In this document: piece by piece, positions 191-26,507 of the stretch | Layout of the letters: each line of letters starts with the position of its first letter | Position numbering within the stretch: position 1 is the first letter of the stretch | Assembly: GCA_026393865.1 (NCBI GenBank) | Contig: JAPKZI010000009.1 | Location: 1-37,327 of the forward strand | Source: Candidatus Aminicenantota bacterium | GTDB lineage: Bacteria > Acidobacteriota > Aminicenantia > Aminicenantales > UBA4085 | Length of the DNA stretch: 37,327 nt | Reading direction: 5' to 3' | Notes under the pieces: model-generated | Databases searched by the model: none | What the model was told of the DNA's origin: nothing | Seen by the model: the letters and a program-made list of their open reading frames with translations, nothing else | Program-made: the position numbers and the translations under genes

Positions 191-294
191 GTCAAGGGAC
201 GAGCCTTCGGCTCGCCACTCGCCCGTAGCTTATATCCACGGGCGAGTACGGCGGAAGTGGACCCCCGGGCAAAGCCCGGGGCCCCGGCCGCCGT
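191..294 (-). repeat. Three-hairpin GC-rich repeat, copy 1 (full length, 104 bp)
   Basis: On the minus strand it runs from ACGGCGGCCGG (ending at 294) to CCCTTGAC (191). It matches copy 3 at 23339-23442 in all but two positions, both in the loop-proximal part of the second hairpin. It contains CCCCGGGC/GCCCGGGG, ACTCGCCCGT/ACGGGCGAGT and GCGAGCC/GGCTCGT stems. Here it is intergenic, between the 5' end of the cut-off gene (start 137) and the 3' end of the trpB2-like gene (stop at 422). The remaining spacer, 295-421, shows nothing else recognisable. Confidence 0.93.
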
Positions 295-421
295 GGAAAG
301 AATCTTACACCTTGGGAAAATAGCCTGTCAATCCGGAAGGAGAGTTCGGGGAGGCCGAAGCCGACCCCGGCCCGGCCCCCCCTAGGGAAAAAGGAGAATC
401 GAAGAAACTGTCTTTATCGTT

Positions 422-1735
422 TCATGCGCTGCGCGACCCGTTGCCGTTCCGGGCGTAGGCGCTGAGGTCGAGTAGCCCGTGACCCGAAAGGTTGAAGAGA
501 ATGACTTTTTCCTTTCCTTCTTTCGTCGCCGCCAGGGCCTCGTCGATGGCCGCCGCGACGGCATGGGACGATTCCGGCGCGGGCAGAATCCCTTCGGCCT
601 TGAAAAAGAAGTGGCCGGCCTCGAAGATGCGGTCCTGCGAATAGGCCCTCGGCTCGACGATCCCAAGCGAGGCGAGATGGCTGACGAGCGGAGCCATGCC
701 GTGGTAGCGCAGACCGCCGGCATGGATCGGAGCCGGGATAAAATCCATGCCCAGGGTGTGCATGCAGAGGAGAGGAGTCAGGCCGGCCGTGTCGCCATGG
801 TCGTATCGCAGCTCACCCTTAGTGAGGGACGGACAGGCGTCTGGCTCGACGGCGACAAAGCGGATGGACCGGCTTTCTTTGAGCCTCTTCCGGACGAAGG
901 GAAAGGCGATCCCCCCGAAGTTCGAACCGCCCCCGACGCAGCCTATGACCACATCGGGTTCGGCGCCTTGGGCGGTCATCTGCAGGTCGGCTTCCTGCCC
1001 GATGACGGTCTGGTGCATGAGGACGGCGTCGAGGACAGAGCCGAGCGAATACCTCGTCGCCGGGCTTTTCATGGCGAGCTCCAGCGCTTCGGAAATGGCG
1101 ATCCCGAGGCTCCCCGGATGGTTGGGGTCCTGGTCATAGAAGCGGGCGCCCGATTCGGTCTTGGGGCTGGGACTTTCCTCGACCGAAGCCCCGAACATTT
1201 CCATGAGGACGCGGCGGCCCGGTTTCTGGCGATAGCTGACCCGGACCATGAAGACCTTGACTTTGACGCCGAAAAGCGCCCCGGCGTGGGCTAAGGCCGA
1301 ACCCCATTGGCCGGCCCCCGTTTCGGTGACGAGCGTCTCGATGCCGTCCTGAGAGGCGAGATAGGCTTGCATCAGGGCGGTGTTGCTTTTGTGGCTTCCC
1401 ATGGGGCCGGCGCCTTCATATTTGTAGAAGATATGGGCCGGCGTACCCAAGGCTTTTTTCAGGCCGGAGGCGTAGATGAGGGGCGTCGGGCGGAAGAGGG
1501 CGAATTTTTCCCGGACGGCGTCGGGGATGGGAACGAAACGCTCCAGGCTCCCTTCATGGGCGATGAATCCTTTTGAGAAGACCGGCTCCAGGTCCTGGGG
1601 GCACAAGGGCTGTTTCGTCCCGGGATGGAGGGGAGGCTTGGGGAGCGTCGGTAAGTCCGCCTTGATATTGTAAAAATGAGAGGGTAAGACGTCGCTGCCC
1701 CGCTCCGAAAAGCGTTTTATTGAATCGATGTTCAT
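422..1735 (-). CDS. trpB: Tryptophan synthase beta chain, type 2 (TrpB2-like)
   Basis: A 437-residue PLP enzyme of the TrpB2 type (fold type II). The family condenses indole with L-serine to make tryptophan in the cytoplasm. The PLP lysine is K116 in the motif GAGPMGSHKSNTA. A TETGAGQWG motif near residue 138 carries the catalytic glutamate, and a glycine-rich phosphate-binding loop, GCVGGGSNFGG, lies further on. The N-terminal extension before the PLP domain is typical of TrpB2 rather than TrpB1. No trpA or other trp gene is adjacent, so this copy may be a stand-alone indole-salvage enzyme, a known TrpB2 habit. The start is an ATG after AAGGAGATTCTC. A roughly 180-nt structured leader precedes it. 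Confidence 0.93.
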   Translation of the reverse strand: MNIDSIKRFSERGSDVLPSHFYNIKADLPTLPKPPLHPGTKQPLCPQDLEPVFSKGFIAHEGSLERFVPIPDAVREKFALFRPTPLIYASGLKKALGTPAHIFYKYEGAGPMGSHKSNTALMQAYLASQDGIETLVTETGAGQWGSALAHAGALFGVKVKVFMVRVSYRQKPGRRVLMEMFGASVEESPSPKTESGARFYDQDPNHPGSLGIAISEALELAMKSPATRYSLGSVLDAVLMHQTVIGQEADLQMTAQGAEPDVVIGCVGGGSNFGGIAFPFVRKRLKESRSIRFVAVEPDACPSLTKGELRYDHGDTAGLTPLLCMHTLGMDFIPAPIHAGGLRYHGMAPLVSHLASLGIVEPRAYSQDRIFEAGHFFFKAEGILPAPESSHAVAAAIDEALAATKEGKEKVILFNLSGHGLLDLSAYARNGNGSRSA

Positions 1736-1738
1736 GAG

Positions 1739-1915
1739 AATCTCCTTGGTGTTGATCTCCCTTTAAAAGGGAACCCGCGCTCGTGCCGAATAGGGCACGA
1801 CCTTCTCGGGAAAAAAAAGAGATGGCGGTAGGGTTATTGGGCGGCGGGGTCCGCCCACCAGAACCCATAAAGAGCGGTATAAGAAGCGCTGGAAAGATTC
1901 GCTGAGCTTCTTATG
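1739..1915 (-). promoter_or_regulatory. Structured 5' leader of the trpB2-like gene
   Basis: Read on the minus strand, the leader has four successive stem-loops. The first is 1905-1915 with 1877-1887 (AAGAAGC arms). The second is 1839-1844 with 1851-1856 (GGGCGG/CCGCCC). The third is 1781-1800 (CGTGCC/GGCACG). The fourth is 1759-1771 (CCCTTTTAAAGGG), just before the ribosome binding site. A run of eight U residues (1811-1818) follows the second stem by about 20 nt. The layout suggests attenuation of a tryptophan gene, but I see no convincing leader peptide with Trp codons and no T-box consensus. The region is otherwise gene-free. Confidence 0.3.
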
Positions 1916-1974
1916 CCGATCATGATGGGCGGATATTAATGAAGAATCAAGCGCGTGTCAAACACTATTTTAAG

Positions 1975-2013
1975 AAAAAAGCCGGTGACGGGAACCGGAG
2001 GCCCGTCACCGGC
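1975..2013 (-). terminator. Rho-independent terminator of the S9 peptidase gene
   Basis: A perfect 12-bp stem, GCCGGTGACGGG (1981-1992) with CCCGTCACCGGC (2002-2013), has a 9-nt loop. On the minus strand it is followed at once by six U residues (1975-1980). It begins 14 nt after the S9 peptidase stop codon. Confidence 0.92.
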
Positions 2014-2027
2014 CGATGAAAAATCTT

Positions 2028-4664
2028 TTATTTTCGCGGCGCTTTGGCGCCGGCCTGTTCCTTCTCCCGGTTGAGCTCCATGATGTCCACGCTCGTCTCG
2101 GAGTCGCCGATGAGGTGCTTGCAGAAATAATCCGCCCGGATCCAGAAGAAGTAGTCGCCCATGGTCCCGTAGCCGTGGCGTTGGCCGGGCATGAGGACGA
2201 AATCGAATCTCTTGTTGGCCAGGATGAGGGCGTTAGCCATGCGGAAGGTGTTGGCCGGATGAACGTTGTTGTCGATATCTCCCGTGACCAGCATCAGGCG
2301 GCCCTTGAGGTTCTTAGCTAGTTCGGAGTTCTTCTCGATCGTATATTCGAACTTGACGTTCCCTTCTTTGTCGATGACCTCTTTGACGCCGTGGTGCTTC
2401 TCGCTCCACCACCGGTTGTAAATATTGTTCTCGTGGTTGCCCGAGCTTGAGACCGCGACTTTGAAAAAGTCCGGGTAGACGAGCATGGCCGCCGTGGACA
2501 TGAAACCGCCTCCGGAATGGCCGTAGATGCCGACCTTGTCCATGTCGATATAGGGATACTTCATAGCCAGCTGTTCGACGGCCCGTTTCTTGTCAGCCAG
2601 GCCGTAGTCGCGGAGATTCCCGTAGCCGAAGTTGTGGTACCACTTGGAGCGGTTCGGATGGCCGCCCCGATTCCCCACTTCGATGATGACGAATCCGAAC
2701 TGGGCCAGGGCGACGTTGGCGTTGCGGGGCGTGAACGTCTTGGAGACGCTCTCGGTCTGGGGGCCGGGATAGACGTACAGGACGATCGGGTATTTCATCT
2801 TAGGGTCGAAGTCGAACGGCTTGTACATGACGCCGTAGAGGTCCGTGATCCCGTCATCGGCCTTGATCTTGAACGGCTCGGGCAACTTGAAGCCGGCCTC
2901 GACCAGCGCCGTCACATCGGTCGCTTCGAGGTCCATGACAATATTGCCCAGGACATCCTTCAGCTGGGATTTCGGTGCCAGGTCCACGCGCGAAGCCGTA
3001 TCCACTAAGAATTTCATGGGTTCGTTCATGTCCGCGGTATGGCTGGCCTCGCCCGGATTGATGAGCTTGAGACCGCCGCCGTCGAGATTAACCCGGTAGA
3101 GGTGGACGAAATAGGGATCCTCGTTCGCTTCCCGGCCGCAGGCTTCGAAATAGAGGACGCGCGTTTTGTCGTCGATGCTTTCGACGCCCGTGCACTCGAA
3201 TTCTCCCGCGGTGATCTGGTTCTTGAGCTTGCCGGTCTCGTCGTAGAGGTAATAATGGCCCCAGCCGTCGCGCTCGGACCACCACAGCATCTCCTTGCCG
3301 GCGTTGATGAGCCGGAGGGGTTGGACGTCGACGTACGTGTTGAGGACTTCCTGGAACAGGACCTTGACCTCCCCCGTCTTCGTGTCGGCCAGGAGGACGT
3401 CGTATTTGTGAAGGTCGCGGCTTTGGCGGCCGAAATACATCTTGTCGGACATGTCGCCGAGCCACATGGCCGGAGGCGGATTGTCCCGGTAGCGATCGGA
3501 GATCTTCCGGGGAGCTGTGGACACGGAGATCGTCTGGTCCTTGAACATATCGGCTTTGATCTTCAGTTTGGCCTTGGTGGCCAGGTCGTAGACCAAGAGC
3601 TCCGGCTGGGGCTGATTCTCCTCGCCGGGCATGGCGTATTTGTAGGTATCGAGCGTCGGCCGGGGATTCGCCAGGGCATTGATGACCCACAAGCTGCCGA
3701 CCTTCCGCTCATCCTCGCGGATCATGGAAAATTTCTTCGAGTCCTTCGACCAGACGATGCCGATCGGCGGAACGCGGTAGTCCTTGCGGTCCTTCTCCTC
3801 TTTTTGGTACTCCTTTTTGTCCTCTTCGTTCAACTCGCGCGTATAGCTGAAATGCTCCTCGCCGTCCGTCGTGAGCTGGACTTCCTTAATATTCTTATCG
3901 TCGGCTTTCTTCTGGGCGAGCTTATAGCTGTCCGCATCCATCATGAACAGGTTGAAGCCACGACCGAAGATGATCGTCTTTTCATCGGGAGAGATGCTTC
4001 CGACCCAGCGGGGCCGTTTGTCCGGGGCCTTGTAATCCTCGAGAAGAGTCAGCTTCCCGGAGGCCAGGTCGTATTCGAAATAGAGCAGCTTGACCTTGGA
4101 TTCGGGTTCTTTGGGAGCAGCGTCCTTTTTTTCGTCCTTCTTTTCCTCCTTCTTTTCCTTGTCCTGCTCCTTTTCCTTCTCTTTTTCCTTGTCCTCGAGC
4201 TCCTTGGCGATATCGACGACTTTCTTGAGCTTGTCCCCGGACATGACATCCGCGTCCTTGGGATATTCGATCTCGAAGCGGAAGGCGGTATCTTTCTTGA
4301 TGAACTTGATTGTCCGGATGGGCAGGTGTTGGGCGTCATAGGGGAAGAGGGTGATCTTCGTCAGCATCGCCGCCATTTTGACACTGTCAAAGAGCGGTTT
4401 CTTTGTCTTGAGCACGGGATCGATCATGAAGAACTTTCGGCCCTGGCTCGTCTCGAACGTGTACCAGAACTTATCGGGTTTGGTCTCGAGCCAGTTCGGC
4501 GTCACCGCCGTGTCGAAAATGAGCTTGGCGACTTTGGCCGGCATCCATTTGGCGGCCAGGTCGTAGTTGGCCTTTTTCAACGGCGCATTTTCGCCGGCCG
4601 AAGCGGGCAGCGCCGCCGCGATCAGGACAAAAACCAGGAATACGGATAAAATGACGCGCTTCAT
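2028..4664 (-). CDS. Secreted S9 family peptidase (dipeptidyl peptidase IV-like)
   Basis: An 878-residue exported serine peptidase of the prolyl oligopeptidase/DPP-IV clan, which trims peptides outside the cytoplasm. Residues 1-24 form a signal peptide ending ASA. A long N-terminal beta-propeller-like region follows, then the alpha/beta hydrolase domain from about residue 620. The catalytic triad is S717 in YGHSGGGF, D798 in GDIDNNVH and H830 in GQRHGYG. The nucleophile motif has His where most DPP-IV relatives have Trp or Tyr. An unusual run of about 40 Lys/Glu/Asp residues (around 155-195) interrupts the propeller and is probably a disordered loop. The start codon follows AAGGAGGATTTCGC. 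It has its own terminator and a likely promoter. Confidence 0.93.
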   Translation of the reverse strand: MKRVILSVFLVFVLIAAALPASAGENAPLKKANYDLAAKWMPAKVAKLIFDTAVTPNWLETKPDKFWYTFETSQGRKFFMIDPVLKTKKPLFDSVKMAAMLTKITLFPYDAQHLPIRTIKFIKKDTAFRFEIEYPKDADVMSGDKLKKVVDIAKELEDKEKEKEKEQDKEKKEEKKDEKKDAAPKEPESKVKLLYFEYDLASGKLTLLEDYKAPDKRPRWVGSISPDEKTIIFGRGFNLFMMDADSYKLAQKKADDKNIKEVQLTTDGEEHFSYTRELNEEDKKEYQKEEKDRKDYRVPPIGIVWSKDSKKFSMIREDERKVGSLWVINALANPRPTLDTYKYAMPGEENQPQPELLVYDLATKAKLKIKADMFKDQTISVSTAPRKISDRYRDNPPPAMWLGDMSDKMYFGRQSRDLHKYDVLLADTKTGEVKVLFQEVLNTYVDVQPLRLINAGKEMLWWSERDGWGHYYLYDETGKLKNQITAGEFECTGVESIDDKTRVLYFEACGREANEDPYFVHLYRVNLDGGGLKLINPGEASHTADMNEPMKFLVDTASRVDLAPKSQLKDVLGNIVMDLEATDVTALVEAGFKLPEPFKIKADDGITDLYGVMYKPFDFDPKMKYPIVLYVYPGPQTESVSKTFTPRNANVALAQFGFVIIEVGNRGGHPNRSKWYHNFGYGNLRDYGLADKKRAVEQLAMKYPYIDMDKVGIYGHSGGGFMSTAAMLVYPDFFKVAVSSSGNHENNIYNRWWSEKHHGVKEVIDKEGNVKFEYTIEKNSELAKNLKGRLMLVTGDIDNNVHPANTFRMANALILANKRFDFVLMPGQRHGYGTMGDYFFWIRADYFCKHLIGDSETSVDIMELNREKEQAGAKAPRK

Positions 4665-4755
4665 GCGAAATCCTCCTTAAAAAAGATATTGATTCGAGGG
4701 ATTTGAGGGGACGGAGACGAATGATGGGTGCCCTGAACGATCATGAAAGAACACT

Positions 4756-4782
4756 TTTATAACACAAGCGGGATAAAATCAA
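4756..4782 (-). promoter_or_regulatory. Putative sigma-70 promoter of the S9 peptidase gene
   Basis: On the minus strand, TTGATT (4777-4782) and TATAAA (4756-4761) are separated by 15 nt, a little short of the ideal. It lies about 90 nt upstream of the S9 peptidase start and just downstream of the small membrane ORF, in an AT-rich patch within GC-rich DNA. Confidence 0.35.
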
Positions 4783-4792
4783 CCGCGAATTG

Positions 4793-4972
4793 TCATCGGA
4801 CGGACATGCCGAGAATGACCATCGTCTCGACATAGCTTCCGAAGAAAATGAAGAATCCGGAGACCAGATAGAGGAGGGCGAACATCTTGAGACCGCTCCG
4901 AAAGCCTTCTTTTCTGGAGACAAAACCGAACTTGATGAACCGGGATTTCTTGACGATGGCCGCGAACTTCAA
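4793..4972 (-). CDS. Small single-pass membrane protein, hypothetical
   Basis: A 59-codon reading frame starting with TTG (4970-4972), six bases after AAAGGA. The N-terminal 30 residues are basic (KKSR, SRKEGFRSG). They are followed by a hydrophobic span of about 20 residues, FALLYLVSGFFIFFGSY, and a short tail. The pattern fits a small inner-membrane protein with a cytoplasmic N-terminus. I recognise no family. It sits 33 nt downstream of tRNA-Arg on the same strand and upstream of the S9 gene. Support rests on the ribosome binding site, the hydrophobic pattern and the absence of another gene here. No canonical ATG is available. Confidence 0.45.
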   Translation of the reverse strand: MKFAAIVKKSRFIKFGFVSRKEGFRSGLKMFALLYLVSGFFIFFGSYVETMVILGMSVR

Positions 4973-5004
4973 TCGATCCTTTCTCTTTTCAAAAACGGAA
5001 CGAG

Positions 5005-5078
5005 CGCGCCCGGAGGGATTTGAACCCCCGACCTATGGATTCGAAGTCCAGCGCTCTATCCAGCTGAGCTACGGGCGC
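5005..5078 (-). tRNA. tRNA-Arg, anticodon TCG
   Basis: On the minus strand the cloverleaf has a 7-bp acceptor stem, GCGCCCG (5072-5078) with CGGGCGC (5006-5012), and G as discriminator. The D-arm is GCTCAGCTGGATAGAGC, the anticodon loop is CTTCGAA (anticodon TCG, reading CGA), and the T-arm contains GGTTCAAATCC. No CCA is encoded. A standard bacterial Arg tRNA. Confidence 0.95.
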
Positions 5079-5160
5079 GTGGGGTCACCTATCTTAACCC
5101 AAGAGAAGGGACATGTAAAATTGAGTCGTGAGACCACCTTAAGGCGGGGGAGAGCTTTGA

Positions 5161-14660: not shown

Positions 14661-16604
14661 ATGAACCTCACTCTCCTCGATTGGGGCATCGTCGTCATCG
14701 TCTTCGCCTTCATCGTCGTCGTCGTCATCTCCTCCAAAAAACTAATGCGGTCGGTCTCGGATTTCCTGGCCGCGGGACGCACCGGCGGGCGCTATCTCAT
14801 CAGCCTCTCCCAGGGGACGGCCGCCCTCGGCGCGATCACCATCGTCGGCATGTTCGAGATGAATTTTATCGCCGGGTTCAACCTGCGCTGGTGGGAAATG
14901 GTCATGGCCGTCGTGCTCGTGTCCATCAGCGTCTCGGGTTGGGTCCTCTACCGCTTCCGCCAGACGCGCGCCCTGACCATGGCTCAGTTCTTCGAGGTCC
15001 GCTACAGCCGCAACTTCCGGATCTTCGCCGGAGGGCTGGCCTTTTTCGCCGGGCTCATCAATTTCGGCATTTTCCCGGCCGTCAGCGCCCGGTTCTTAAT
15101 CTATTTCTGCGGCCTTCCACCGTCGTTCGACGTTTTTGGGATCTCCGTCTCCACGTTCGCCCTGACTATGGTCGTCATCCTCTGGATCCCCTTGTATTTC
15201 GTCTTCAGCGGGGGGCAGATCGCGGTGATGATCACCGATTTCCTCCAAGGGATATTCACTAACGCCGTTTTCATCGTCATCGTCGTCGTCCTGATGCTCA
15301 AGGTCGATTGGGCCCACATCTTCGCCGCCGTCGGCGCCGCGCCCGCCGATGCTTCGCTCATCAATCCCTTCAAGACCGGCAGCACCAAGGACTACAATTT
15401 CTGGTATTTCCTGATCGGAATGGTCGGCGTCATCTACGGCAAGCTGTCCTGGCAGGGCACGCAGGCCTACAACGCCTCGGCCAAGAGCGCCCACGAGGCG
15501 AAGATGGGCGACGTTCTCATGAACTGGCGGAATATCCCCCAATGGGGGCTGTTCCTGGTCTTCGTCCCCCTCGTCGCCTACACCTTCCTTCATCACCCCG
15601 ACTACGCGGGAGCGGCCGCGGGGATCCGGCCGGTGTTGGACGGCTTGGCAAGCGACGCTCTTCGGAGCCAATTGACAGTCCCTCTGGCCCTGACCAAGCT
15701 CCTCCCCGTCGGACTGATGGGGGCGTTCGCGGCGGTGATGCTCGCCGCGTCCATCGCCTGCCATGAGACCTATCTCCATTCCTGGGGCAGCATCTTCATC
15801 CAGGACGTGGTGATGCCGATCCGGAAGCGGCCGTTCGCGCCCGAACAACACATCAAATATCTGAAGGCGGCCATTCTGGGCGTAGCGGTCTTCATTTTCT
15901 TCTTCAGCCTCCTCTTCCAGCAGAGCGAATACATCTTCCTCTTTTTCGCCGTCACCGGAGCGATCTTCGCCGGCGGCAGCGGCGCGGTGATCATCGGAGG
16001 TCTTTATTGGAAGCGCGGAACGACCGCGGCGGCCTGGTCGGCGATGATCACCGGCTCGGTCGTGGCGGTCGGGGGCATCGTCATCCAGCAGATCGACAAG
16101 GACTTCTTCATCAACGGCCAGATGTTCTGGGGACTGGCCATGGCCCTCAGCAGCGTGGTCTATGTCATCGTCTCTCTGGCAACGGGGCGCGGGAAACGGA
16201 CCTTCGACATGGACCGGATGCTCCACCGCGGCCGCTTTCTCATCCGGGAAGAATATAAGGTCGTGGACGAGACGCCGGTCAAAGGCTGGAAAGTCCTGGG
16301 CATGGGCCGGGAGTTTACGAAATTCGACAAGGTCATCTATATCGCGACCTACGCCTGGACCTTCTCCTGGGTCGTCGTCTTCATCGTCGGGACGATCGTG
16401 AACCTGACGGGAAGCGTCGGCAACGCGGCCTGGATGAGCTTCTGGAAGACCTACGTCTGGATCTATCTGGCCACGTCGGTCGTCGTCATCGTCTGGTTCT
16501 CGACGGGCGGGCTGATCAATCTCCGGCAGATGATCAAAACGCTCAAGACCATGACCCGAGACCACGCCGATGACGGATTCGTTCATAAAGACCATGACCG
16601 CTAG
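14661..16604 (+). CDS. Sodium:solute symporter (SSS family), probably sugar transport
   Basis: A 647-residue integral membrane protein with 13-15 predicted hydrophobic spans and the SSS-family look. The first helix starts at residue 7, DFLAAGRTGG follows it, and LSQGTAALGAITIVG marks the sodium-site helix. Later come a cytoplasmic loop near 510-545 and two final helices. The family couples sodium entry to uptake of sugars, amino acids or other solutes. It is the first gene of a run with GH94, GH130 and UroD-family genes, so a disaccharide or oligosaccharide is the likely substrate. The GH94 start overlaps its last 35 nt, which indicates translational coupling. It appears leaderless. Confidence 0.92.
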   Translation: MNLTLLDWGIVVIVFAFIVVVVISSKKLMRSVSDFLAAGRTGGRYLISLSQGTAALGAITIVGMFEMNFIAGFNLRWWEMVMAVVLVSISVSGWVLYRFRQTRALTMAQFFEVRYSRNFRIFAGGLAFFAGLINFGIFPAVSARFLIYFCGLPPSFDVFGISVSTFALTMVVILWIPLYFVFSGGQIAVMITDFLQGIFTNAVFIVIVVVLMLKVDWAHIFAAVGAAPADASLINPFKTGSTKDYNFWYFLIGMVGVIYGKLSWQGTQAYNASAKSAHEAKMGDVLMNWRNIPQWGLFLVFVPLVAYTFLHHPDYAGAAAGIRPVLDGLASDALRSQLTVPLALTKLLPVGLMGAFAAVMLAASIACHETYLHSWGSIFIQDVVMPIRKRPFAPEQHIKYLKAAILGVAVFIFFFSLLFQQSEYIFLFFAVTGAIFAGGSGAVIIGGLYWKRGTTAAAWSAMITGSVVAVGGIVIQQIDKDFFINGQMFWGLAMALSSVVYVIVSLATGRGKRTFDMDRMLHRGRFLIREEYKVVDETPVKGWKVLGMGREFTKFDKVIYIATYAWTFSWVVVFIVGTIVNLTGSVGNAAWMSFWKTYVWIYLATSVVVIVWFSTGGLINLRQMIKTLKTMTRDHADDGFVHKDHDR

Positions 16605-19053
16605 ATCCAAGTACGGACATTTCAGCCCGGACGGGAAGGAATACGTCATCACCAACGTCGCCACGCCGAGCCCCTGGATCAACTACATATATAACGGGCG
16701 ATACTTCGCCACGATCTCGAACAACGGAGGCGGGATCAGCTATTATAAGAGCCCCCTTCACGGCCGGATCACGAGGTACAGGATCAACGACGTGCCCCCG
16801 GACCGGCCGGGGAAATACATCTATGTCAAAGACCGGGAGTCGAGCGCGTTCTGGAGCCTGACCTGGCAGCCGGTCGGGAGGAATGTCGAGGCGTATCGTG
16901 TCGCCCACGGTTTCGGCTATACGCGGGCCGACGCCGACGTGGAAGGCATCGCCTCATCTGTTCTCTTTTTCGTCCCCCCCGATGACGACCAGGAGATCTG
17001 GAAGGTCCGGCTCACCAACGGATCGGCCGGGACACGCCGCCTTTCGATCATCGGCTACGTCGAATTCGCCCTCGGCCACGCCCTCATCGACCTCATCAAC
17101 CAGTGCGACGATCAGCATTTCAACCGCGTTCACTTCGACCGCGAACTCAACGCTATCTTCGCGACCAAGACCTACTGGGTGACGGAGACGCGCGGAACCC
17201 AGCATCAGGAGAACAAGGAATGGGACCGCTGGGCGTTCTTCACGGTCGATCGGCCCGTCGTCGCCTACGAGACGCTGCGCGAACGCTTCCTGGGGTCTTA
17301 CCGCAACGAGAGCCGCCCCGAGGCCATTGACCTCGGCCGGCTCGGATCCCGCGACACGGATTTCGGCAACGCCGTCGGCGCTCTGCAGGTCGATCTCGAT
17401 CTTGCCCCGGGCCAGTCCGAAGATCTCGTTTTTTCTCTTGGCGTCGTTCCCAAGGCCGAGTTCGAGTCGAAAAAACAGGCCGCCGTTAGGAAATATCACG
17501 ACCTGGGCGCCGTTAGCTCCGCGTTCGCCGCCGTTCAGAAGGCCTGGACGGATTTCTTCGATCACGCGCGCTTTGAAACACCCTACCCCGACGCCAATAT
17601 CTTCATGAACTATTGGACTCCCTATCAAGCCAAGGTCGCCTTCGACGTCGGCCGCGTCGCCAGCTTTTATTACTGGGGCATCGGCCGGGGCTTCGGCTAT
17701 CGTGACACGGCCCAGGACACCATCGCCATCTCGATCTCCGATCCGGCCAAGGCGCGCGAGAGGATCCTCCTCCTGGCCCGCCAGATGCGGCGCGACGGCA
17801 AGGTTTATCACCACTTCTACGGCGACGGTCAGGGCGAATTCACCGAGCACTGCGACGACCCGCTCTGGTTTATCCTGGCCGTCACGGAGTATCTCAAGGA
17901 GAGCGGTGATTTCGGCCTTCTTGATCAGCCGGAGCCGTTTCTCGACGGCGGCCGGGGCCCCGGGCTTTGCCCGGGGGTCCACTTCCGCCGCGAAGGCTCG
18001 TCCCTTGACGGCCCCAAGGGAACGATCCTCGACCATCTCTTCGCCGTCGTCGATTTCGCCCGGTCCAACCTCAGGTCCCACGGCCTGCCCAACTTCGGCC
18101 GGGGGGATTGGAACGACACCCTCGATTACATCGGCGGCGCGGACGGCGGCGAGAGCGTCTGGGGCGGGATGTTCTATATGGCCATGCTCACCCGGCTCAT
18201 CGAATTGCTCGAGCATCTGAAGCTGGATTCGAGGATCCAGGACATCGCCGCTGTCCGCGACGGACTGGCCGAAGCCCTGGACAAATTCTGTTGGGATGGA
18301 GCCTGGTACATCCGCGCTTTCGGGGAGAACGGCAAGAAGATCGGATCGAAGGACAATCGATACGGCCAAATCTTCATCAACGCCCAGAGCTGGGCGGTGA
18401 TCGCCGGACTTCCCGACCGATCGCGCCTCATTCAGGCTATGGACAGCGCCCGCGAAAGGCTCGGCTCGGAATACGGGCCGAAGATCTGCGCCCCCGCCTT
18501 CCGCGAGATCGACCCCAAGATCGGACTCATCACCCGCTGCGTCCGGGGGAAGAAGGAAAACGGCGCGGTCTTCTGCCATCCGGCGGCCTGGCTGATCCAG
18601 GCCGAGTGCCTATTAGGACGGGGAGACGCGGCTTTCGAATATTATCGAACGCTGCTGCCCAATCGCGTCGATCCGGATGTCTTTACAGCCGAGCCCTATG
18701 TTTATTCTCAATACATCACCAGCGACGAGCACGAATCCCCGGGCCGGGCCAGCCATTCCTGGCAGACCGGCTCGGCAGCCTGGATGTTCCGGGTCGCCGT
18801 CGACTTCATCCTCGGCATCCGGCCGACGTACGAAGGGCTTCTCGTCGATCCCGTCATCCCCCGGTCGTGGAAAGACTTCCGGGCCGAGCGCGTTTTTCGC
18901 GGCACGCGCTATTTCGTCGAGGTCGAAAATCCGGGCGGCGCGGAATCGGGCGTGGCCGCGATGACCGTCGACGGCCGTCCGGTCCAAGGCCGGATCGTGC
19001 CCATCTCGGACAAGCCCGAATGCCGGATCCATGTTACAATGAGCCCGAGGTGA
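16570..19053 (+). CDS. GH94 glycoside phosphorylase (cellobiose phosphorylase-like) with repeat-encoded insertion
   Basis: An 827-residue inverting phosphorylase. The family splits beta-glucosides such as cellobiose with phosphate to give glucose-1-phosphate. The N-terminal beta-sandwich starts YGHFSPDGKEYVITN and contains the PWINY and ITRYR motifs of cellobiose phosphorylases. The (alpha/alpha)6 barrel contains GFGYRDTAQD and the catalytic acid D513 in GDWND. No signal peptide: cytoplasmic. Residues 459-479 (GGRGPGLCPGV and following) are encoded by a shortened three-hairpin repeat. Without them the text reads FLDGPKGTILDHL, matching the family's usual DGGEGTVYEHL. The insert is about 35 residues before the catalytic Asp, so activity may be altered but the barrel stays in frame. 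It overlaps the symporter and is 4 nt from the GH130 gene. Confidence 0.93.
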   Translation: MTDSFIKTMTARSKYGHFSPDGKEYVITNVATPSPWINYIYNGRYFATISNNGGGISYYKSPLHGRITRYRINDVPPDRPGKYIYVKDRESSAFWSLTWQPVGRNVEAYRVAHGFGYTRADADVEGIASSVLFFVPPDDDQEIWKVRLTNGSAGTRRLSIIGYVEFALGHALIDLINQCDDQHFNRVHFDRELNAIFATKTYWVTETRGTQHQENKEWDRWAFFTVDRPVVAYETLRERFLGSYRNESRPEAIDLGRLGSRDTDFGNAVGALQVDLDLAPGQSEDLVFSLGVVPKAEFESKKQAAVRKYHDLGAVSSAFAAVQKAWTDFFDHARFETPYPDANIFMNYWTPYQAKVAFDVGRVASFYYWGIGRGFGYRDTAQDTIAISISDPAKARERILLLARQMRRDGKVYHHFYGDGQGEFTEHCDDPLWFILAVTEYLKESGDFGLLDQPEPFLDGGRGPGLCPGVHFRREGSSLDGPKGTILDHLFAVVDFARSNLRSHGLPNFGRGDWNDTLDYIGGADGGESVWGGMFYMAMLTRLIELLEHLKLDSRIQDIAAVRDGLAEALDKFCWDGAWYIRAFGENGKKIGSKDNRYGQIFINAQSWAVIAGLPDRSRLIQAMDSARERLGSEYGPKICAPAFREIDPKIGLITRCVRGKKENGAVFCHPAAWLIQAECLLGRGDAAFEYYRTLLPNRVDPDVFTAEPYVYSQYITSDEHESPGRASHSWQTGSAAWMFRVAVDFILGIRPTYEGLLVDPVIPRSWKDFRAERVFRGTRYFVEVENPGGAESGVAAMTVDGRPVQGRIVPISDKPECRIHVTMSPR
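17945..18009 (+). repeat. Three-hairpin repeat, copy 2 (shortened, 65 bp) inside the GH94 gene
   Basis: Same ends as the full copies (ACGGCGGCCGG to CCCTTGAC) but with an internal 39-bp deletion. The deletion removes the whole second hairpin and the left arm of the third. Flanking GACGG occurs on both sides (17944-17948 and 18007-18011), so the net insertion is 63 bp, or 21 codons. In this reading frame the full element would contain TAG and TAA, both within the deleted 39 bp. Confidence 0.95.
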
Positions 19054-21058: not shown

Positions 21059-21144
21059 AATTCCGGGGATACTAACCTTAATTCGCCTTCCGAAAAATAA
21101 AAGTCCTAAACGCTATACGAATTATGGTTAGCGTCCCCGGAATT
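21059..21144. repeat. REP-like long palindrome after the UroD-family gene
   Basis: Arms 21059-21085 and 21118-21144 are inverted copies of 27 bp with three mismatches (AATTCCGGGGA, CTAACC and AATTCG shared). They enclose a 32-nt AT-rich centre. The arm sequence resembles CCGGGGA-type palindromes associated with IS200/RAYT-like transposases in environmental genomes, but no transposase is present here. It begins 8 nt after the UroD stop codon and could also end transcription. Confidence 0.75.
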
Positions 21145-21162
21145 CAGCCAAAAATTTAGGGG

Positions 21163-21191
21163 TTGAGTTATCTGTCATCGAAATATAAAAT
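21163..21191 (+). promoter_or_regulatory. Putative promoter of the desulfoferrodoxin-rubrerythrin pair
   Basis: TTGAGT (21163-21168), a 17-nt spacer and TAAAAT (21186-21191) lie in an AT-rich patch just upstream of the desulfoferrodoxin ribosome binding site (AAGGAGAG). I see no clear PerR-type operator. Confidence 0.48.
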
Positions 21192-21224
21192 ATATTCTCT
21201 AAAAATCAATAAGGAGAGTTGCAT

Positions 21225-21605
21225 ATGCCGAAAGTCAGTCAAAGACTCCAAGTCTTCAAGTGCGCCCTCTGCGGGAATATCGTCGAAGTATTATTTGTCG
21301 GAGGCGCCGAGCTCGTCTGCTGCGGCCAGCCTATGAACCTGCTGACCGAGAACACGGTCGACGCGTCCAAGGAAAAGCATGTCCCGGTGATCGAGAAGAC
21401 GGCCGACGGGGTCAAGGTCAAAGTGGGCTCCGTCCCCCACCCTATGGAGGACAAGCACTACATCCAGTGGGTCGAGGTCATCGACGGCGGATTCGTCTAT
21501 CGCCAGTTCTTGAAACCCGGCCAGGCTCCCGAAGCCGTGTTCTGCGTCAAAGGCAAGGTTTCCGCCCGCGAATATTGCAATCTCCACGGCTTATGGAAAG
21601 CGTGA
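21225..21605 (+). CDS. dfx: Desulfoferrodoxin (class I superoxide reductase)
   Basis: A 126-residue cytoplasmic iron protein that reduces superoxide to peroxide in anaerobes. The N-terminal desulforedoxin centre has C13, C16, C32 and C33. The catalytic Fe centre ligands are H52 (EKHVPVI), H72 (PHPM), H78 (DKHYIQW), C118 and H121 (YCNLHGLW). All ligands of a 2Fe superoxide reductase are present. The ATG at 21225 is preferred over a TTG two codons earlier because of the AAGGAGAG spacing. Rubrerythrin follows after 19 nt and would remove the peroxide formed. Confidence 0.96.
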
Positions 21606-21624
21606 CCGGAGCGAACAAGGAGAA

Positions 21625-22209
21625 ATGACCATGTCGAAATCCATCAAAGGGACCCAAACGGAAAAGAACCTCCTGGCTTCGTTCGCCGGAGAATCTCAAG
21701 CCCGGAACCGCTACACCTACTTCTCCGGCGTCGCCCGGAAAGCAGGCTTCGAGCAGATCGCCGAGATCTTCCTCGAGACCGCCGAGAACGAAAAAGAGCA
21801 CGCCAAGCGGTTCTTCCGATTCCTCGAAGGCGGAGACCTCGAGATCACGGCCTCTTATCCCGCCGGCGTAATCGGCGAAACGGCGGCCAACCTCGAAGCC
21901 GCCGCGGCCGGCGAACACCTCGAATGGACCAAGCTTTACAAGGAGGCGGAAAAGACGGCCGAGAAAGAAGGCTTCCCCGAGATCGCCAAGCAGTTCAAGG
22001 AAATCAGCGAGATCGAGGCTCATCATGAAAAGCGCTACCGGAAACTGCTGGCCAATGTCCGTGAGGGTAAGGTCTTCAAGAAGGACGTCGTCGTGAAATG
22101 GAAATGCCGCAATTGCGGCTACATCCATGAGAGCAAAGAGGCGCCCCAGAACTGTCCGGCCTGCTTGCATGCTCGCGCGTTCTACGAGGTGCTCGCGGAA
22201 AACTATTGA
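21625..22209 (+). CDS. rbr: Rubrerythrin
   Basis: A 194-residue non-heme di-iron peroxidase. The ferritin-like four-helix domain has E23, the ENEKEH motif (54-59), a GEHLEW segment and [10 protein letters not shown] (129-138), the usual di-iron ligands. The C-terminal rubredoxin domain carries the Cys4 site C161, C164, C177 and C180. It reduces hydrogen peroxide using electrons from rubredoxin-like donors in the cytoplasm of anaerobes. Its ATG follows AAGGAGAA; a second ATG two codons later is possible. It is probably co-transcribed with the superoxide reductase and ends at a repeat-like hairpin. Confidence 0.96.
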
Positions 22210-22218
22210 CGGACGGGA

Positions 22219-22272
22219 CCTCCCGAGGTTGAATGAGATCCTTCGCTTCGTTCAGGAGGGACAGGCTTTTTT
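22219..22272 (+). terminator. Probable terminator built on a dispersed-repeat fragment
   Basis: CCTCC (22219-22223) pairs with GGAGG (22255-22259), and TGAATGA (22230-22236) pairs with TCGTTCA (22248-22254). Six T residues follow at 22267-22272. The core GAGATCCTTCGCTTCG at 22235-22250 matches a dispersed repeat fragment common in bacterial genomes. The T-run overlaps the stop codon of the convergent GHMP kinase gene. Confidence 0.5.
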
Positions 22273-23263
22273 AGAAGACAATCGGCTTGACCACGATCGC
22301 GCCTAATCTCCCCAGTTCCTCTAACAGCCGCTCAAACATGACCTCGTCCTTAAAGGTCCCAAGAATCGACCCCCCCGATCCGGCGAAATGGGACGAAGCG
22401 CCGCAGCCCCTGGCCGTGTCGATCATCTCCTGATTGGCGGGGTGAATGGTCATAATCGACCGGCGCAAGTCGAAGTTCTCGTTGATGAGCCGGGACAGCC
22501 GGTCATGGTCCTGTTCCAGGATCGCCGCGCGTCCCTGGTCGGCCAGCCCGGCCAGCTTTTTCAGCGTTTCGAGGGTGAACGGATCGCCCCGGTCGACCTT
22601 GATCCGGATCTCGTTCAGGACGCGGCCGGAGACCTTTCCCAGGGCCGGCTTGTAAGCGAGGTATAAAGGGGGAAGCAAGTCAGCATCCAAGCGTTCATAC
22701 CGGCCATAGCCCCTGTCCCTGAGGAGATCCCTGTCGAAGTCCATGTACAGGCAGCCTTCATAGACCTGGGTAACCCGGTCCTGGAGTCCGGCGTTGATAT
22801 CGAGTTCATCCCTTTCCGCGCCGAGGATGAGCCCGGGTTGCGCCTCGATCGGGATCGTCAGTTCGTAGAAATTCATCAAGGCTCTCATGGTCGCAGTAAT
22901 GATGGCGCTCGAGCCGCCCAGTCCGATCTGCCGGGGGATGTCGGATGTGAAGCGGACCGTAAAATTCTTCCGCGGAAGAACTACGCCGGAAGAAAGAGCA
23001 TATTCATAAAACTTTTTCATGGCGGCCTTGATGAGGCGGACGGCTCCGTAATAGCCGTAAAGCCCGACCTTTTCAGCGAATTCGGAAAGCGATCCGTAGC
23101 GCTCCTCCTCGTCCGCGGACGGAACGATGCGGATGTCCGGGCTGTCCTCGAGCGCCAATCGCGCCCGGAAATTCTTGATCGAGACGGCGATGACCTTGCC
23201 GAAATAGCCGTCAGACGGATTCCCGAGCAATCCCGCCCGGGCGAAGGCGAACCCTTCGATCAT
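22271..23263 (-). CDS. GHMP family sugar kinase, glucuronokinase-like
   Basis: A 330-residue cytoplasmic GHMP-fold kinase. The ATP-binding signature is IPRQIGLGGSSAI (109-121). The start ARAGLLGNPSDGYFGK strongly recalls plant glucuronokinases, which phosphorylate C1 of glucuronate. ASSHFAGSGGSI near the C-terminus is the third GHMP motif. The product would be a sugar-1-phosphate. A sugar nucleotidyltransferase gene lies 3.3 kb upstream on the same strand, so the two may form a kinase plus nucleotidyltransferase salvage pair. The ATG follows AAGGAGAGAGCTCGC. Exact substrate unproven. Confidence 0.88.
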   Translation of the reverse strand: MIEGFAFARAGLLGNPSDGYFGKVIAVSIKNFRARLALEDSPDIRIVPSADEEERYGSLSEFAEKVGLYGYYGAVRLIKAAMKKFYEYALSSGVVLPRKNFTVRFTSDIPRQIGLGGSSAIITATMRALMNFYELTIPIEAQPGLILGAERDELDINAGLQDRVTQVYEGCLYMDFDRDLLRDRGYGRYERLDADLLPPLYLAYKPALGKVSGRVLNEIRIKVDRGDPFTLETLKKLAGLADQGRAAILEQDHDRLSRLINENFDLRRSIMTIHPANQEMIDTARGCGASSHFAGSGGSILGTFKDEVMFERLLEELGRLGAIVVKPIVF

Positions 23264-23338
23264 GCGAGCTCTCTCCTTATGGACAATCCCTCATCTCGCC
23301 TTCCTTCCGGCGAGATGGGAAAGTGTCTTCGTTTTTCG

Positions 23339-23442
23339 ACGGCGGCCGGGGCCCCGGGCTTTGCCCGGGGGTCCACTTCCGCCGTACTCGCCCGTAGATA
23401 TAAGCCACGGGCGAGTGGCGAGCCGAAGGCTCGTCCCTTGAC
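23339..23442 (+). repeat. Three-hairpin GC-rich repeat, copy 3 (full length, 104 bp)
   Basis: Stem 1 is 23352-23359 with 23363-23370, stem 2 is 23386-23395 with 23407-23416, and stem 3 is 23418-23424 with 23428-23434. The left flank is TTTTCG. The right end overlaps the last base of the oxidoreductase stop codon (23442-23444, minus strand), so it forms the immediate 3' UTR of that gene. The rest of the gap to the GHMP kinase (23264-23338) contains only its ribosome binding site and a CATCTCGCC/GGCGAGATG stem-loop (23291-23317). Confidence 0.95.
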
Positions 23443-25481
23443 TAAAGCGAAGCCAAAACCCCTCTGACGTACCCGATCGACTCCGCCGCCCCGGCCAGAG
23501 GGTCCTTCTCGTCCTTTTCGTATTCCAGGCTGACCGCTCCGGCGTAATTCAGCTTGATGAGCGTCCTCAGCAGTTTCGGAATGTCGGTGACGCCTCGCCC
23601 GATCTCGACGGTCGAGCCTTTCTCTGTCGAATCGGTCACGTCCTTGATATGGAGATCGAGCAGCCTCTCTTTGTACCGCTCGGCCGCGCCGGCCGGGTCG
23701 ATCCCGCATCGCTGCGTATGCCCGACATCGAGACATAGGCCGACGCGCATGTCCATGCCTTTGATCTTGTCGTAAACGCTTTCGGGCGTCGGATAGAGCT
23801 TGTCCGTGGGTCCGTGGTTATGGACGGCCAGCCCGATACCGGACCGCTTGACGAGTTCATGAGCCAGGTCCAAGAGCTCGTGATTCGGAACACCGACGAT
23901 CATTTTCATGCCAGCGGCTTTGGCGTAATCGAACGCCTGCCTGGTTTCGGTTTCGGTCCTCATATAGATCACCCCGCCCGCATAGGGATCGAGCCCGGAC
24001 TGCTTGAGCTTCGCCGCGATCGCCCGGATCTGATCCGGAGAGCTCTCCAACGGCAAATGCATGCTCTTGAGCGAGATTTTCCGCAGTCCCAGCCGCTTGG
24101 TCATGCCGATCGTCTCGTCCAAGCCGAACGCCCGGAACGTGTACGAGCACATGCCGAGCTCGAAGCGGTATTTATTCCTGTCGACAAGCAGGATCGGCTC
24201 TTGTTGGGGAAACAATTGGTTCGAGATCACGGGCGCGGCCAGACGCACGGCGATATTTCCGAGGTGGCAGGCCAGGACCGACTTGTGGCCGATCTCGACG
24301 TCCGCGGTCGGCGTCTTTCGCGTTTTCATGGATTCGACGAAATTCCTGATATGTTCGAAATGAAAATCGCCCGATCCCCCCTGGCGCGGCTTGGGCAACA
24401 TGCGGAAGACTCGGTCCGGCTGCTTGAGCTGATCGGTTTCGGCATGGACCTCCCATCCTCCCCTGTCCACAACGAGAATTCCGTTCTCACCGTGGAACTC
24501 GCAGCCGTGCTCCCTTTGCCACGGCCCGATCCCGCAGCCGATCATGTGTTCCCAGACGAGCGAGAAAGTGGGGAATTCGATGACGGATTGCTGCGTGTCC
24601 GGCGTTTCCCGGATGTCGTCTGGAAAACCGTATTTTCCGCCGATGGCCATGGCCCCGACCGGTTCTTCCCCCATGATCCACATGACCACGTCGATCATGT
24701 GCGCGCCCCAGTCCGTGGCCAGGCCGCCGGAATAGTCCCAGAACCAGCGAAAGTTGTGGTGAAAGCGCATCGAATTGAACGGCCGGGCCGGCGCCGGACC
24801 GAGCCACATGTCGTAATCGACGCCTGGAGGAGCGGGTCCGTCCGGAGGGCTTCCGAGCGAGCCCTTCCAATCGAGATAGGCCCAGGCGCGCGTCATCCGG
24901 ATCTTGCCGAGCCGGCCGGATTTGACGAAGTCCCGGGCGGCCTGGTAGTGCTTGGAGCTGCGCTGCTGAGTGCCCACTTGGACGATGCGGTTGTATTTGC
25001 GCGCGGCCGTGACCATGGCTCGGCCTTCCGCGATGGTCGTCGCCAGCGGCTTTTCGACATAGACGTCCTTGCCGGCCTGGCAGGCCAGGACGGTCAGGAG
25101 AGCATGCCAGTGATCGGGCGTCCCGACGATGACGGCATCGACGTCCTTGCGGTCGAGGATCCTGCGGAAATCCTTATAGCCGTCCGGGGCCTTGCCGCGA
25201 GCGTCGGTTACTCTCTTGATCCCTTCGGCGAGCCGTTTCTCATCGACGTCGCAGACGGCCGGACAGTCGATCTCCGGCAGACGGAGAAAAGCGCCGAGGT
25301 CGGCCTTCCCCTGGTCGCCCGCGCCGATCAAGCCCACCCGGATCCTGTCGCTTGAGGCAGGTTTCTGCCGGGTTGAAGCGGCAGCCGCCGCGGCGGTCGC
25401 CAGGCCGGCGGCGATAGCCGAGGCCGAGAGCGATGCTTTCGCCGCATCCCCGAGAAATTCCCTGCGTTTCATTTTTTTCAT
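23442..25481 (-). CDS. Tat-exported Gfo/Idh/MocA oxidoreductase fused to a sugar isomerase/epimerase TIM barrel
   Basis: A 679-residue two-domain protein. The ATG at 25479-25481 follows AAGGAGGCCGG and gives MKKMKRREFLG, a twin-arginine-like signal with an Ala-rich helix. The Gfo/Idh domain (about 45-435) has GLIGAGDQGKAD for NAD(P) and the EKPLATT motif. Family members oxidise sugars, often at C3. From about residue 455 (FELGMCSYTFRAFG) a xylose-isomerase-like TIM barrel follows, with LAVHNHGP, GLCLDVGHT, LLDLHIKD and a final SLEYE carrying the usual metal ligands. The last part of the usual Gfo/Idh C-terminus is missing, so the domains are joined tightly. It is divergent from the DUF1080 gene, which suggests a joint 3-keto-glycoside pathway. 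Its stop codon abuts repeat copy 3. Confidence 0.92.
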   Translation of the reverse strand: MKKMKRREFLGDAAKASLSASAIAAGLATAAAAAASTRQKPASSDRIRVGLIGAGDQGKADLGAFLRLPEIDCPAVCDVDEKRLAEGIKRVTDARGKAPDGYKDFRRILDRKDVDAVIVGTPDHWHALLTVLACQAGKDVYVEKPLATTIAEGRAMVTAARKYNRIVQVGTQQRSSKHYQAARDFVKSGRLGKIRMTRAWAYLDWKGSLGSPPDGPAPPGVDYDMWLGPAPARPFNSMRFHHNFRWFWDYSGGLATDWGAHMIDVVMWIMGEEPVGAMAIGGKYGFPDDIRETPDTQQSVIEFPTFSLVWEHMIGCGIGPWQREHGCEFHGENGILVVDRGGWEVHAETDQLKQPDRVFRMLPKPRQGGSGDFHFEHIRNFVESMKTRKTPTADVEIGHKSVLACHLGNIAVRLAAPVISNQLFPQQEPILLVDRNKYRFELGMCSYTFRAFGLDETIGMTKRLGLRKISLKSMHLPLESSPDQIRAIAAKLKQSGLDPYAGGVIYMRTETETRQAFDYAKAAGMKMIVGVPNHELLDLAHELVKRSGIGLAVHNHGPTDKLYPTPESVYDKIKGMDMRVGLCLDVGHTQRCGIDPAGAAERYKERLLDLHIKDVTDSTEKGSTVEIGRGVTDIPKLLRTLIKLNYAGAVSLEYEKDEKDPLAGAAESIGYVRGVLASL

Positions 25482-25616
25482 TCCGGCCTCCTTTCCTGTC
25501 ATGAGGGGCGCTTCGTTCGGCACCGTCGGCCCTTATTTATTTATACACAGAACGGGATTCTTTTGCTATATTTTAAAATGTGAACGTGATAAGAATACAA
25601 TCAAGGGAGAAAGAAT

Positions 25617-26507
25617 ATGCTGAAGAAAACGTGGAGCCCTATATTTATCTTCTTGGCGTCGATGTCTGCGGCCGCGGTGATGGCGCCGAACGGGAATACA
25701 TCTCAACCCGAGGCCGCGAATGTTCTGATCGCCCAGGAAAAAGCCCAGGGCTGGGTCCTCCTGTTCGACGGAATAACTTTCGCCGGGTGGCGGGGGCTAG
25801 GTTATACCCACGTTCCACCGGAGCACTGGATCATCGAGAACGGAGCCATCAAAAAAGTGCCGACGAAGGACGTGCCCCTTCAGAAGGACGGCCAACCGCT
25901 CCTCGGCGGCGACCTGATGACCATCGAGGAATTCGAGGACTTCGAGCTCGCTTTCGACTGGAAGATCAGCCCCGGCGGCAATTCGGGTGTCAAATACAAC
26001 GTCTCGGAGGAGATGTCGACGGCGGCCGGGGCCCCGGGCTTGCCCGGGGGGTCCACTTCCGCCGTACTCGCCCGTGAAAATAAACCACGGGCGAGTGGCG
26101 AGCCGAAGGCTCGTCCCTTGACGGCCAATCCCCCATCTCATGCCGCCCTGGGATTTGAATATCAGGTCTTGGACGACGATAAACACCCCGATGCCAAGAA
26201 CGGCCCGAACCGGACGGCGGGAGCCCTTTACGATCTGATCGGTCCCCGGAACAAAACACTGAAACCGGTCGGCGAATACAACACGGCTAAGATCGTCTTC
26301 ATCGGAAAGCACGGCGAGCATTGGCTTAATGGGGTCAAAGTTCTCGAATTCGACCTGGACACGGCCGCCTTCGGCCAGCTCCTGGCTAAAAGCAAATACA
26401 AGGACATCCCCAAGTTCGCCGAAAAACGGAAAGGGCATATCGTCCTTCAGGACCATACGGACGCGGTCTGGTATAGGAACATCAAGATCCGAATCCCAAA
26501 AAAATAA
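25617..26507 (+). CDS. DUF1080 (3-keto-disaccharide hydrolase-like) exported protein with repeat-encoded insertion
   Basis: A 296-residue protein with a signal peptide (about 1-22) and a LamG-like DUF1080 domain. Landmarks are WVLLFDGITFAGWRG, FELAFDWKISPGGNSGVKYNV, GFEYQVLDD, GEYNTAKIVFIGKHGEHWLNG and a final IKIRIPKK. The Pfam family is named for hydrolysis of 3-keto-glycosides. Residues 135-168 are encoded by a full three-hairpin repeat (SAVLARENKPRASGEPKARP and neighbours). Without them the text reads NVSEEMSTANPPSHAALGFE, a normal family sequence. The insertion lies in the loop between two core strands. The ATG follows GGGAGAAAGAAT. It is divergent from the Gfo/Idh-isomerase gene across a 135-bp AT-rich gap. 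Confidence 0.92.
   Translation: MLKKTWSPIFIFLASMSAAAVMAPNGNTSQPEAANVLIAQEKAQGWVLLFDGITFAGWRGLGYTHVPPEHWIIENGAIKKVPTKDVPLQKDGQPLLGGDLMTIEEFEDFELAFDWKISPGGNSGVKYNVSEEMSTAAGAPGLPGGSTSAVLARENKPRASGEPKARPLTANPPSHAALGFEYQVLDDDKHPDAKNGPNRTAGALYDLIGPRNKTLKPVGEYNTAKIVFIGKHGEHWLNGVKVLEFDLDTAAFGQLLAKSKYKDIPKFAEKRKGHIVLQDHTDAVWYRNIKIRIPKK
26019..26122 (+). repeat. Three-hairpin repeat, copy 4 (full length, 104 bp) inside the DUF1080 gene
   Basis: Same ends as the other copies. GACGG flanks it on both sides (26018-26022 and 26120-26124), giving a net insertion of 102 bp, or 34 codons, with no stop. Relative to copy 3 it has lost one T in the first loop and gained one G five bases later, so length and frame are kept. 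Other changes lie in the second hairpin loop. Confidence 0.95.

Follow-up and report, generated by a model that had tools for sequence, protein, structure and literature searches.

The stretch of DNA analysed here (the window) comprises 37,327 nucleotides of a Candidatus Aminicenantota bacterium (positions 1 to 37,327 of the forward strand of contig JAPKZI010000009.1, assembly GCA_026393865.1) and contains four copies of a short repeat that can fold into three hairpins. The locus raises two questions: whether this repeat is a mobile element, and by what means a repeat whose full copies, at about 102 bp, have no room for a transposase gene could be moved. A preliminary description, made from the letters of the window alone, had proposed a non-autonomous mobile or structured element of 104 bp. 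All four repeats were found where it had placed them, with the common end sequences and the three stems that it reported (the single strand folds into three back-to-back hairpins), and the length of 104 bp is correct for three of them, the fourth being a 65-bp form (Table 1). Comparison with other genomes supported the proposal and added what it had lacked, namely the in-frame insertions, the exact net lengths of 102 and 63 bp and the nesting. The number of copies, the empty sites in relatives and the nesting of copies identify the repeat family as a non-autonomous mobile element that Candidatus Aminicenantes carry in high copy number, and its mobility is firmly established; covariation of the hairpins shows that it is also structured. 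In what follows, G000 is the genome of the window (which lies on its contig C112), G001 belongs to the same genus and G004 to the same family, and L numbers denote the individual stretches that were compared.

To our knowledge, palindromic elements that insert in frame are best known from Rickettsia, and their way of moving is still open. The unrelated, uncultured lineage described here offers sharp junctions of full copies, empty sites, nested copies that provide an internal control, and insertions of both kinds, private and shared. Two questions thereby become testable: by which enzyme small hairpin elements without a linked transposase are moved, and what effect inserts of 21-34 residues have on conserved enzymes. 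Gene annotation of Aminicenantes will also include protein segments derived from the element.

Copies are absent from the corresponding sites of related genomes

Movement was evident from relatives in which a site is empty. Copy 26019-26122 is absent from both G001 and G004, where the coordinates of the high-scoring segment pairs (HSPs) gave a net difference of exactly 102 bp; for G002 the difference was about 100 bp, with fuzzy HSP ends. Copy 17945-18009 is absent from the gene of G002, from which exactly 63 bp are missing. Copy L191 of G016 (contig C23) is absent from G034, G044, G046 and G050, each time with a net difference of 102 by HSP arithmetic, and is present in G079. The same site in G022 holds the short form and, since it is full in G016, a 39-nt block was gained or lost in place. 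A further copy, L127 of G001, has an empty paralogous site in L178 that is 95.5% identical across the junction (157 bases; 72 and 93% by flank). Three matches were used from the list of empty-site matches, which also included chance, self and 65-75% matches. The preliminary description had allowed that the same copies might stand at the same loci in all relatives; clean empty sites were found in relatives instead.

The family is present in many copies

A 104-nt query gave 40 scored matches of 94-100% identity in its own genome (of 92 first-look candidates). When the 17-nt right end was searched for with at most two mismatches in ten genomes, a count that pools full, short and nested copies, 80 matches were obtained in G000, 159 in G001, 37 in G006, 32 in G022, 23 in G016, 12 in G079, 8 in G002, 4 in G010 and none in G004 or G034, whereas the reversed pattern gave 0 or 1 per genome (1 in G000). 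Chance repeats are ruled out by the own-genome matches and by the count of 80 right ends against 1. The possibility that the genome held only the four copies of the window, which the preliminary description had also named, thus fell away, with about 80 copies present. Its estimate that a genome could hold hundreds was right in that the copies are many, but the 80 right ends of G000, an 86%-complete assembly, fall short of that figure and the sister genome G001 comes nearer to it.

The covariance model matched 12 of the 142 genomes of the class, in families labelled f1, f2 and f6; in four of these genomes there are no more than three matches, and in genus g10 only some species are matched. A phylum-wide DNA search found matches in 6 of 396 genomes, one of them weak, and a pattern scan of GTDB genomes found at least 74 stretches. 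Among the matches listed, 72 are titled as Candidatus Aminicenantes or Acidobacteria metagenome-assembled genomes, one as Mycobacterium and one as Spirochaetes. The flanks of the element on the Spirochaetes-titled contig (L122) are 91-97% identical to Aminicenantes contigs, and this contig is probably misbinned Aminicenantes DNA. G079 and RBG_13_64_14 gave an identical protein and may be one genome. Copies in f6 genomes are up to 96-97% identical to the window's copy, and genes of the window show about 66-78% identity to genes from other genera within their own family; judged from sequence, the high identity of copies across families suggests either transfer between families or an unusual constraint. 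For phage carriage, an exact search of viral_contigs with one pattern gave no match.

Rfam 15 matched no copy at the gathering score, its sole match in the window being a tRNA at 5005-5078, and a known RNA family was rejected on this basis. Literature searches on transposases and palindromic sequences of Aminicenantes, made in one library, returned no such element by title or start of the abstract, which is not proof of novelty, and the top papers from broader searches made no mention of Aminicenantes.

Hairpins 1 and 2 are conserved by structure

Folded as single-stranded DNA, the 107-nt stretch formed three hairpins at -41 kcal/mol (z = -5.9; none of 200 shuffles was as good), with hairpin 1 (H1) at positions 4-50 (about 47 nt), hairpin 2 (H2) at 51-81 (about 31 nt) and hairpin 3 (H3) at 82-101 (about 20 nt), followed by a CTTGAC tail. 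The short form, from which a 39-nt block (hairpin 2 plus the left arm of hairpin 3) is missing, retains hairpin 1 alone (z = -3.2). Covariation was weak within the close subfamily (4 pairs). It was strong in a MAFFT alignment of H1 and H2 (33 rows, including divergent two-hairpin relatives from G002, G008, G010 and others), in which 94.1% of cells were paired and 67 cells had changes on both sides, compared with 18.3 (SD 6.7) in shuffled alignments; none of 500 shuffles was as high, and slid controls gave 4-11. The 33 rows were those of the 37 in alignment A2 that remained without L176, L238, L244 and the second L123 match. A2 was fitted to the covariance model and A3 is the MAFFT alignment, but the divergent rows of A3 were found with the model. 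The apparent covariation of the third hairpin (helix 5 of A2) was not used, as the rows there run into unlike sequence. Hairpins 1 and 2 are kept by structure, and H3 with the CTTGAC tail marks the subfamily of the window.

Copies within genes nearly all stay in frame

A codon model trained on window genes placed 15 of 95 testable copies inside a gene with the same frame on both sides, compared with 1338 of 2000 random points in the window, a control that may overstate sensitivity in other genomes. Testable here means having enough flank, which was true of 95 of the 106 copies; L115, which was coding-like but had stops, was not counted and L114:2656 fell below the threshold. Seven of the in-gene copies lie in one orientation and eight in the other, and all 15 are free of stop codons within the element. 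When the two sides were no longer required to share a frame, the model gave 15 in-frame copies (one of them on both strands) and a single out-of-frame copy, the 101-bp L100. Because L151 and L176 are one site in two genomes, the 15 copies represent 14 independent sites.

The translations of the in-gene copies continue through the insert, and in nine of the 15 proteins Pfam matches run across it or flank it; these are GH94, PGM_PMM_II, 3keto-disac_hyd, AP_endonuc_2 (the same site in two genomes), Methyltransf_23, MacB_PCD, PhzC-PhzF and Pect-lyase_RHGA_epim. In five others the insert lies beside or between matched domains (L173, L136, L053, L168 and L148), and one protein, that of L114:1048-4008, had no Pfam match. 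A PIN_2 protein below the in-gene threshold is likewise split by the insert. The copies have a mild excess of open frames (4.11 per copy, against 3.02 (SD 1.11) in shuffles). In a TIM-barrel gene common to G016 (L191) and G079 (L211), the proportions of synonymous (pS) and non-synonymous (pN) differences outside the insert were 0.163 and 0.044, values that fit purifying selection on the gene.

The inserts of L191 and L211 themselves show no differences in 34 codons (102 bp), although the local and overall rates would predict some 2.5 to 5 synonymous changes.

Such identity in a gene with a pS of 0.163 would suit an explanation other than mobility, in which each copy is a functional RNA or DNA structure (a terminator, an mRNA stabiliser or a protein-binding site) selected at its place and not selfish; the strong covariation of hairpins 1 and 2, and the fact that 80 of the 95 testable copies were not called in-gene, also speak for it. 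However, such a structure would not account readily for empty sites in relatives, for copies nested in one another (see below) or for in-gene copies in both orientations, and placement beside genes is only weakly biased, with 59 gene 3' ends against 47 5' ends and 50 undecided (78 copies, counted without the 17 top-ranked in-gene candidates). We consider this explanation highly improbable.

Junctions and ends of the element

Flanks were counted for 91 of the 100 full copies, excluding flanks shorter than 30 bp and copies that do not end in C (which removes the TTGAT copies). The three bases before the element were T (67), C (81) and G or C (83), giving the target TCSAC, whereas the right flank of the same copies held at most 0.05 bits at each of its first eight positions; that is, the element lies 3' of a fixed short target and its right flank is random. 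Over all 106 copies the 3' end of the element was TGAC in 93, TGAT in 5, TGGC in 5, CGAC in 2 and CGGT in 1, and AC stood on both sides in 80. The right end, TTGAC, resembles the target. The net insert of 102 bp (63 bp for the short form) follows from the two bases, AC, that target and element have in common; the cut could lie before or after AC with the same net insert, and a 2-bp duplication of AC is indistinguishable from a shared AC. Between the left end, GGCGGCC, and the right end, CCCTTGAC, no inverted match was seen by eye. A classical miniature inverted-repeat transposable element (MITE) was rejected, since both terminal inverted repeats and a clear target duplication are missing.

In the short copies of G006 (L220-L232) the left ends are mostly unlike those of the window, as if decayed or exchanged; L228 and L231 are alike.

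A single-strand transposase as candidate mobiliser

Judged by the general junction geometry of individual insertion sequence (IS) elements, and by general features of the IS200/IS605 group, the asymmetric junctions, the lack of a duplication, the likeness of TTGAC to TCSAC and the conserved hairpins are the traces expected of a single-strand HUH transposase. We infer that the folded single strand would be cut at a TYSAC motif at both ends by an HUH tyrosine transposase acting in trans (IS200/IS605- or RAYT-like), and that the excised strand would be joined 3' of TCSAC in single-stranded target DNA. Insertions that break genes would be purged by selection and in-frame ones would survive, as with the Rickettsia palindromic elements (RPEs). 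We assign this proposal a probability of about 0.57.

Several observations weigh against it. The opposite strand folds almost equally well (z = -5.7), so that the fold does not mark the active strand, and orientation relative to GC skew, a possible mark of the lagging strand, gave 14 of 22. H1 starts directly after the target motif, which leaves no obvious room for a left guide of the IS608 type (no dedicated guide search was made). The shared AC leaves an ambiguity of 2 nt, and the empty site L028 compared with L155 fits better with a cut two bases to the left. The form of the TIM-barrel gene in G022 gave an open frame of only 209 aa, and this gene may be broken. PF01797 (Y1) was found in 44 of the 59 genomes searched, among them most of the genomes without the element, yet G022 and G010, which carry it, gave no match. 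Moreover, 28 stretches with Y1 genes (27 genes, as L058 and L089 hold the same one) showed element matches at chance level, the best with E values of 0.27 and 0.52; these 27 genes are a part of the PF01797 matches that includes G000, G001, G002 and G006, with two of the three from G016 lying outside it. No autonomous version of the element was seen. Finally, a TCS left flank was present in 3 of the 13 short copies fetched from G006 (L220, L221 and L225) and in 1 of the 5 readable two-hairpin relatives from G010 (L233), and because of this weak left motif we reduced the probability of the HUH proposal from 0.60 to the value given above and slightly raised that of a different kind of enzyme, considered below.

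No linked RAYT or IS200 element was seen among the 27 Y1 genes examined, none of which has the ends of the element. The Y1 protein of G000 shares 24-50% identity with seven further ones from carriers. The window's contig gave no match to any of the three transposase families that were searched for (PF01797, PF04986 and PF02371). An IS200-like element, some 600 bp long (L058:1412-2030, L059:1412-2035, L057, L060 and L061) is 78-93% identical between genomes and has a 23-bp palindromic sequence at both ends; of the five, only the G001 copy comes from an element-rich genome. The ends of this group, the one IS200-like group compared, differ from those of the element.

The same junctions could have been made by a Y2 rolling-circle HUH enzyme (IS91/ISCR-like), for which the geometry would be the same, with a short fixed motif on one side, a similar motif at the other end and no target duplication. 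The flanks of copies L179 and L196 do match a PF04986-type locus of G011 in its empty state, but PF04986 had no match in the carriers G001 and G016 and is present in many non-carriers (31 of the 59 genomes overall), and we regard this enzyme as an improbable mobiliser. The G011 locus is IS91-like (L185:1171-2478, contig C9), and the sequence that matches is the insertion site of the element at L179:209 and L196:9947.

It is also conceivable that an enzyme of another kind (IS110 with its bridge RNA, a site-specific recombinase or a retroelement) moves the element, and that its ends merely resemble those of single-strand transposition. Neither of the HUH families searched tracks the carriers, the left motif is weak in the short copies of G006, and PF02371 genes are present in G000, G001 and G006, including one on G000:C20 that lies at a distance of 1.4 kb from a copy. 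However, PF02371 is absent from the carriers G002, G010, G016, G022 and G079 and present in the non-carriers G004 and G046, and an asymmetric 5-nt target without duplication is not what most of these systems usually leave, so that we hold such an enzyme to be a lesser, though real, possibility. Both Y2 (PF04986) and IS110 (PF02371) genes were rejected as a mobiliser that tracks the element, as neither is co-distributed with the carriers.

Nested copies and modular build

In L111, L141 and L160 a full element follows an internal TCCAC in hairpin 1 of another copy and is itself followed by the remainder of that host copy; in L132 only the right nest junction is seen. The net insert in L111 is 102 bp, and L141 and L160 have a variant in common and perhaps do not represent independent cases. 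In many copies of G001, hairpin 1 contains at GGGG/CCCC a related two-hairpin unit of 78 bp, which has a 37-bp hairpin in its loop. Hairpin 2 scored in the opposite orientation in seven groups (six LmR and one LLmR; for example L170 and L163), which fits a flip of this hairpin.

The main block lengths are divisible by three (63, 102 and 141 bp, with blocks of 39 and 78). This pattern, together with nesting and the in-frame copies, could describe a modular hairpin element of triplet length whose frames are mostly open, which is a recurrent source of 21- or 34-residue inserts in the enzymes of uncultured Aminicenantes, grows by nesting in itself at an internal target, has passed from one bacterial family to another and owes its mobility to a single-strand transposase so far unconnected with elements of this kind. 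We put this composite picture forward tentatively and think it rather unlikely to be right in all its parts; the 37-bp hairpin block is not a multiple of three and, the block lengths being few, the triplet pattern could be due to chance.

The arrangement of a hairpin in a hairpin in a hairpin was seen at L111:2432-2663, L132:138-369, L141:2736-2976 and L160:4174-4415, and the 37-bp hairpin has GGCTTTG direct repeats.

Comparison with known elements

Passages of PMC10969869 describe RPEs as palindromic elements of about 150 bp, present in many copies and fused in frame into the genes of unrelated enzymes, and place nearly half of those in R. conorii within open reading frames (ORFs). As in those passages, a high-copy palindromic element stands here in frame in unrelated protein genes; the host belongs to another phylum and the in-gene share is 15 of 95 testable copies, and the two are likened by description, not by sequence. 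The same source, in part, reports that the small pneumococcal repeats BOX, RUP and SPRITE insert into one another, a likeness that is again one of description, not sequence, and concerns another host.

According to passages of PMC8266576, RAYT is an HUH enzyme related to IS200/IS605. REP and REPIN sequences (RAYT, TnpA-REP) are, as far as the passages go, like the Aminicenantes element in being high-copy hairpin DNA without an internal transposase gene. They differ in that a REP has one hairpin of 20-50 nt, whereas the element has three within 102 bp, with no conserved GTAG beside the hairpins at either end (in a 28-row alignment of end motifs from 27 of 43 diverse copies and window 23336-23442) and no association with a RAYT gene, none of the 27 Y1 genes examined being flanked by the element. 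GTAG and CGTC REPs are both described in passages of PMC3733652, the CGTC type without a dedicated transposase, and some CGTC REPs correspond there to RPE-4 and RPE-6. These too, on the evidence of the passages, form a palindromic high-copy family without an associated transposase, but they have one stem of 8-9 bp and an unpaired terminal CGTC, whereas in the element CGTC forms part of the last arm of hairpin 3, and the terminus is CTTGAC. With IS200/IS605 elements, as outlined in passages of PMC8266576, the repeat shares the lack of a clear duplication, insertion 3' of a short target, a right end like the target, and hairpins; it differs in having no internal tnpA and no guide sequence identified (no dedicated search was made). 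By analogy, the element would work like an RPE and may resemble an IS200/IS605 derivative.

Copies in the window and their host genes

The coordinates of the copies and of the two genes that carry them are given in Table 1. The left flank of copy 191-294, on the minus strand, is TCC followed by AC, and the covariance model matched G000:C112:191-297. Copy 17945-18009 has TCG and AC at its left and ends in TTGAC. The GH94 insert coincides with gaps in the alignment to cellobiose phosphorylase 3qde among PDB relatives. In copy 26019-26122 one deletion and one insertion cancel each other. The PF06439 match of its host protein spans residues 53-300 with the insert at 143-177, and the PDB alignments of this protein are interrupted around the insert.

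Table 1. Copies of the hairpin element in the window and the genes that carry them.
Feature	Position	Strand	Description
Full copy	191..294	-	104 bp, net insert 102 bp; outside listed ORFs of at least 120 aa
Host gene of short copy	16570..19053	+	GH94; frame open through insert; PF17167 (two stretches) and PF06165
Short copy	17945..18009	+	65 bp, net insert 63 bp = 21 codons; in frame within GH94 phosphorylase-like gene
Full copy	23339..23442	+	Intergenic
Host gene of in-frame full copy	25617..26507	+	PF06439; frame open through insert
Full copy	26019..26122	+	Net insert 102 bp = 34 codons; in frame within 3-keto-disaccharide hydrolase (PF06439) gene

At the right end of copy 23339-23442 (window 23439-23444), the last base of the copy belongs to the stop codon of a minus-strand ORF (23442-25523).

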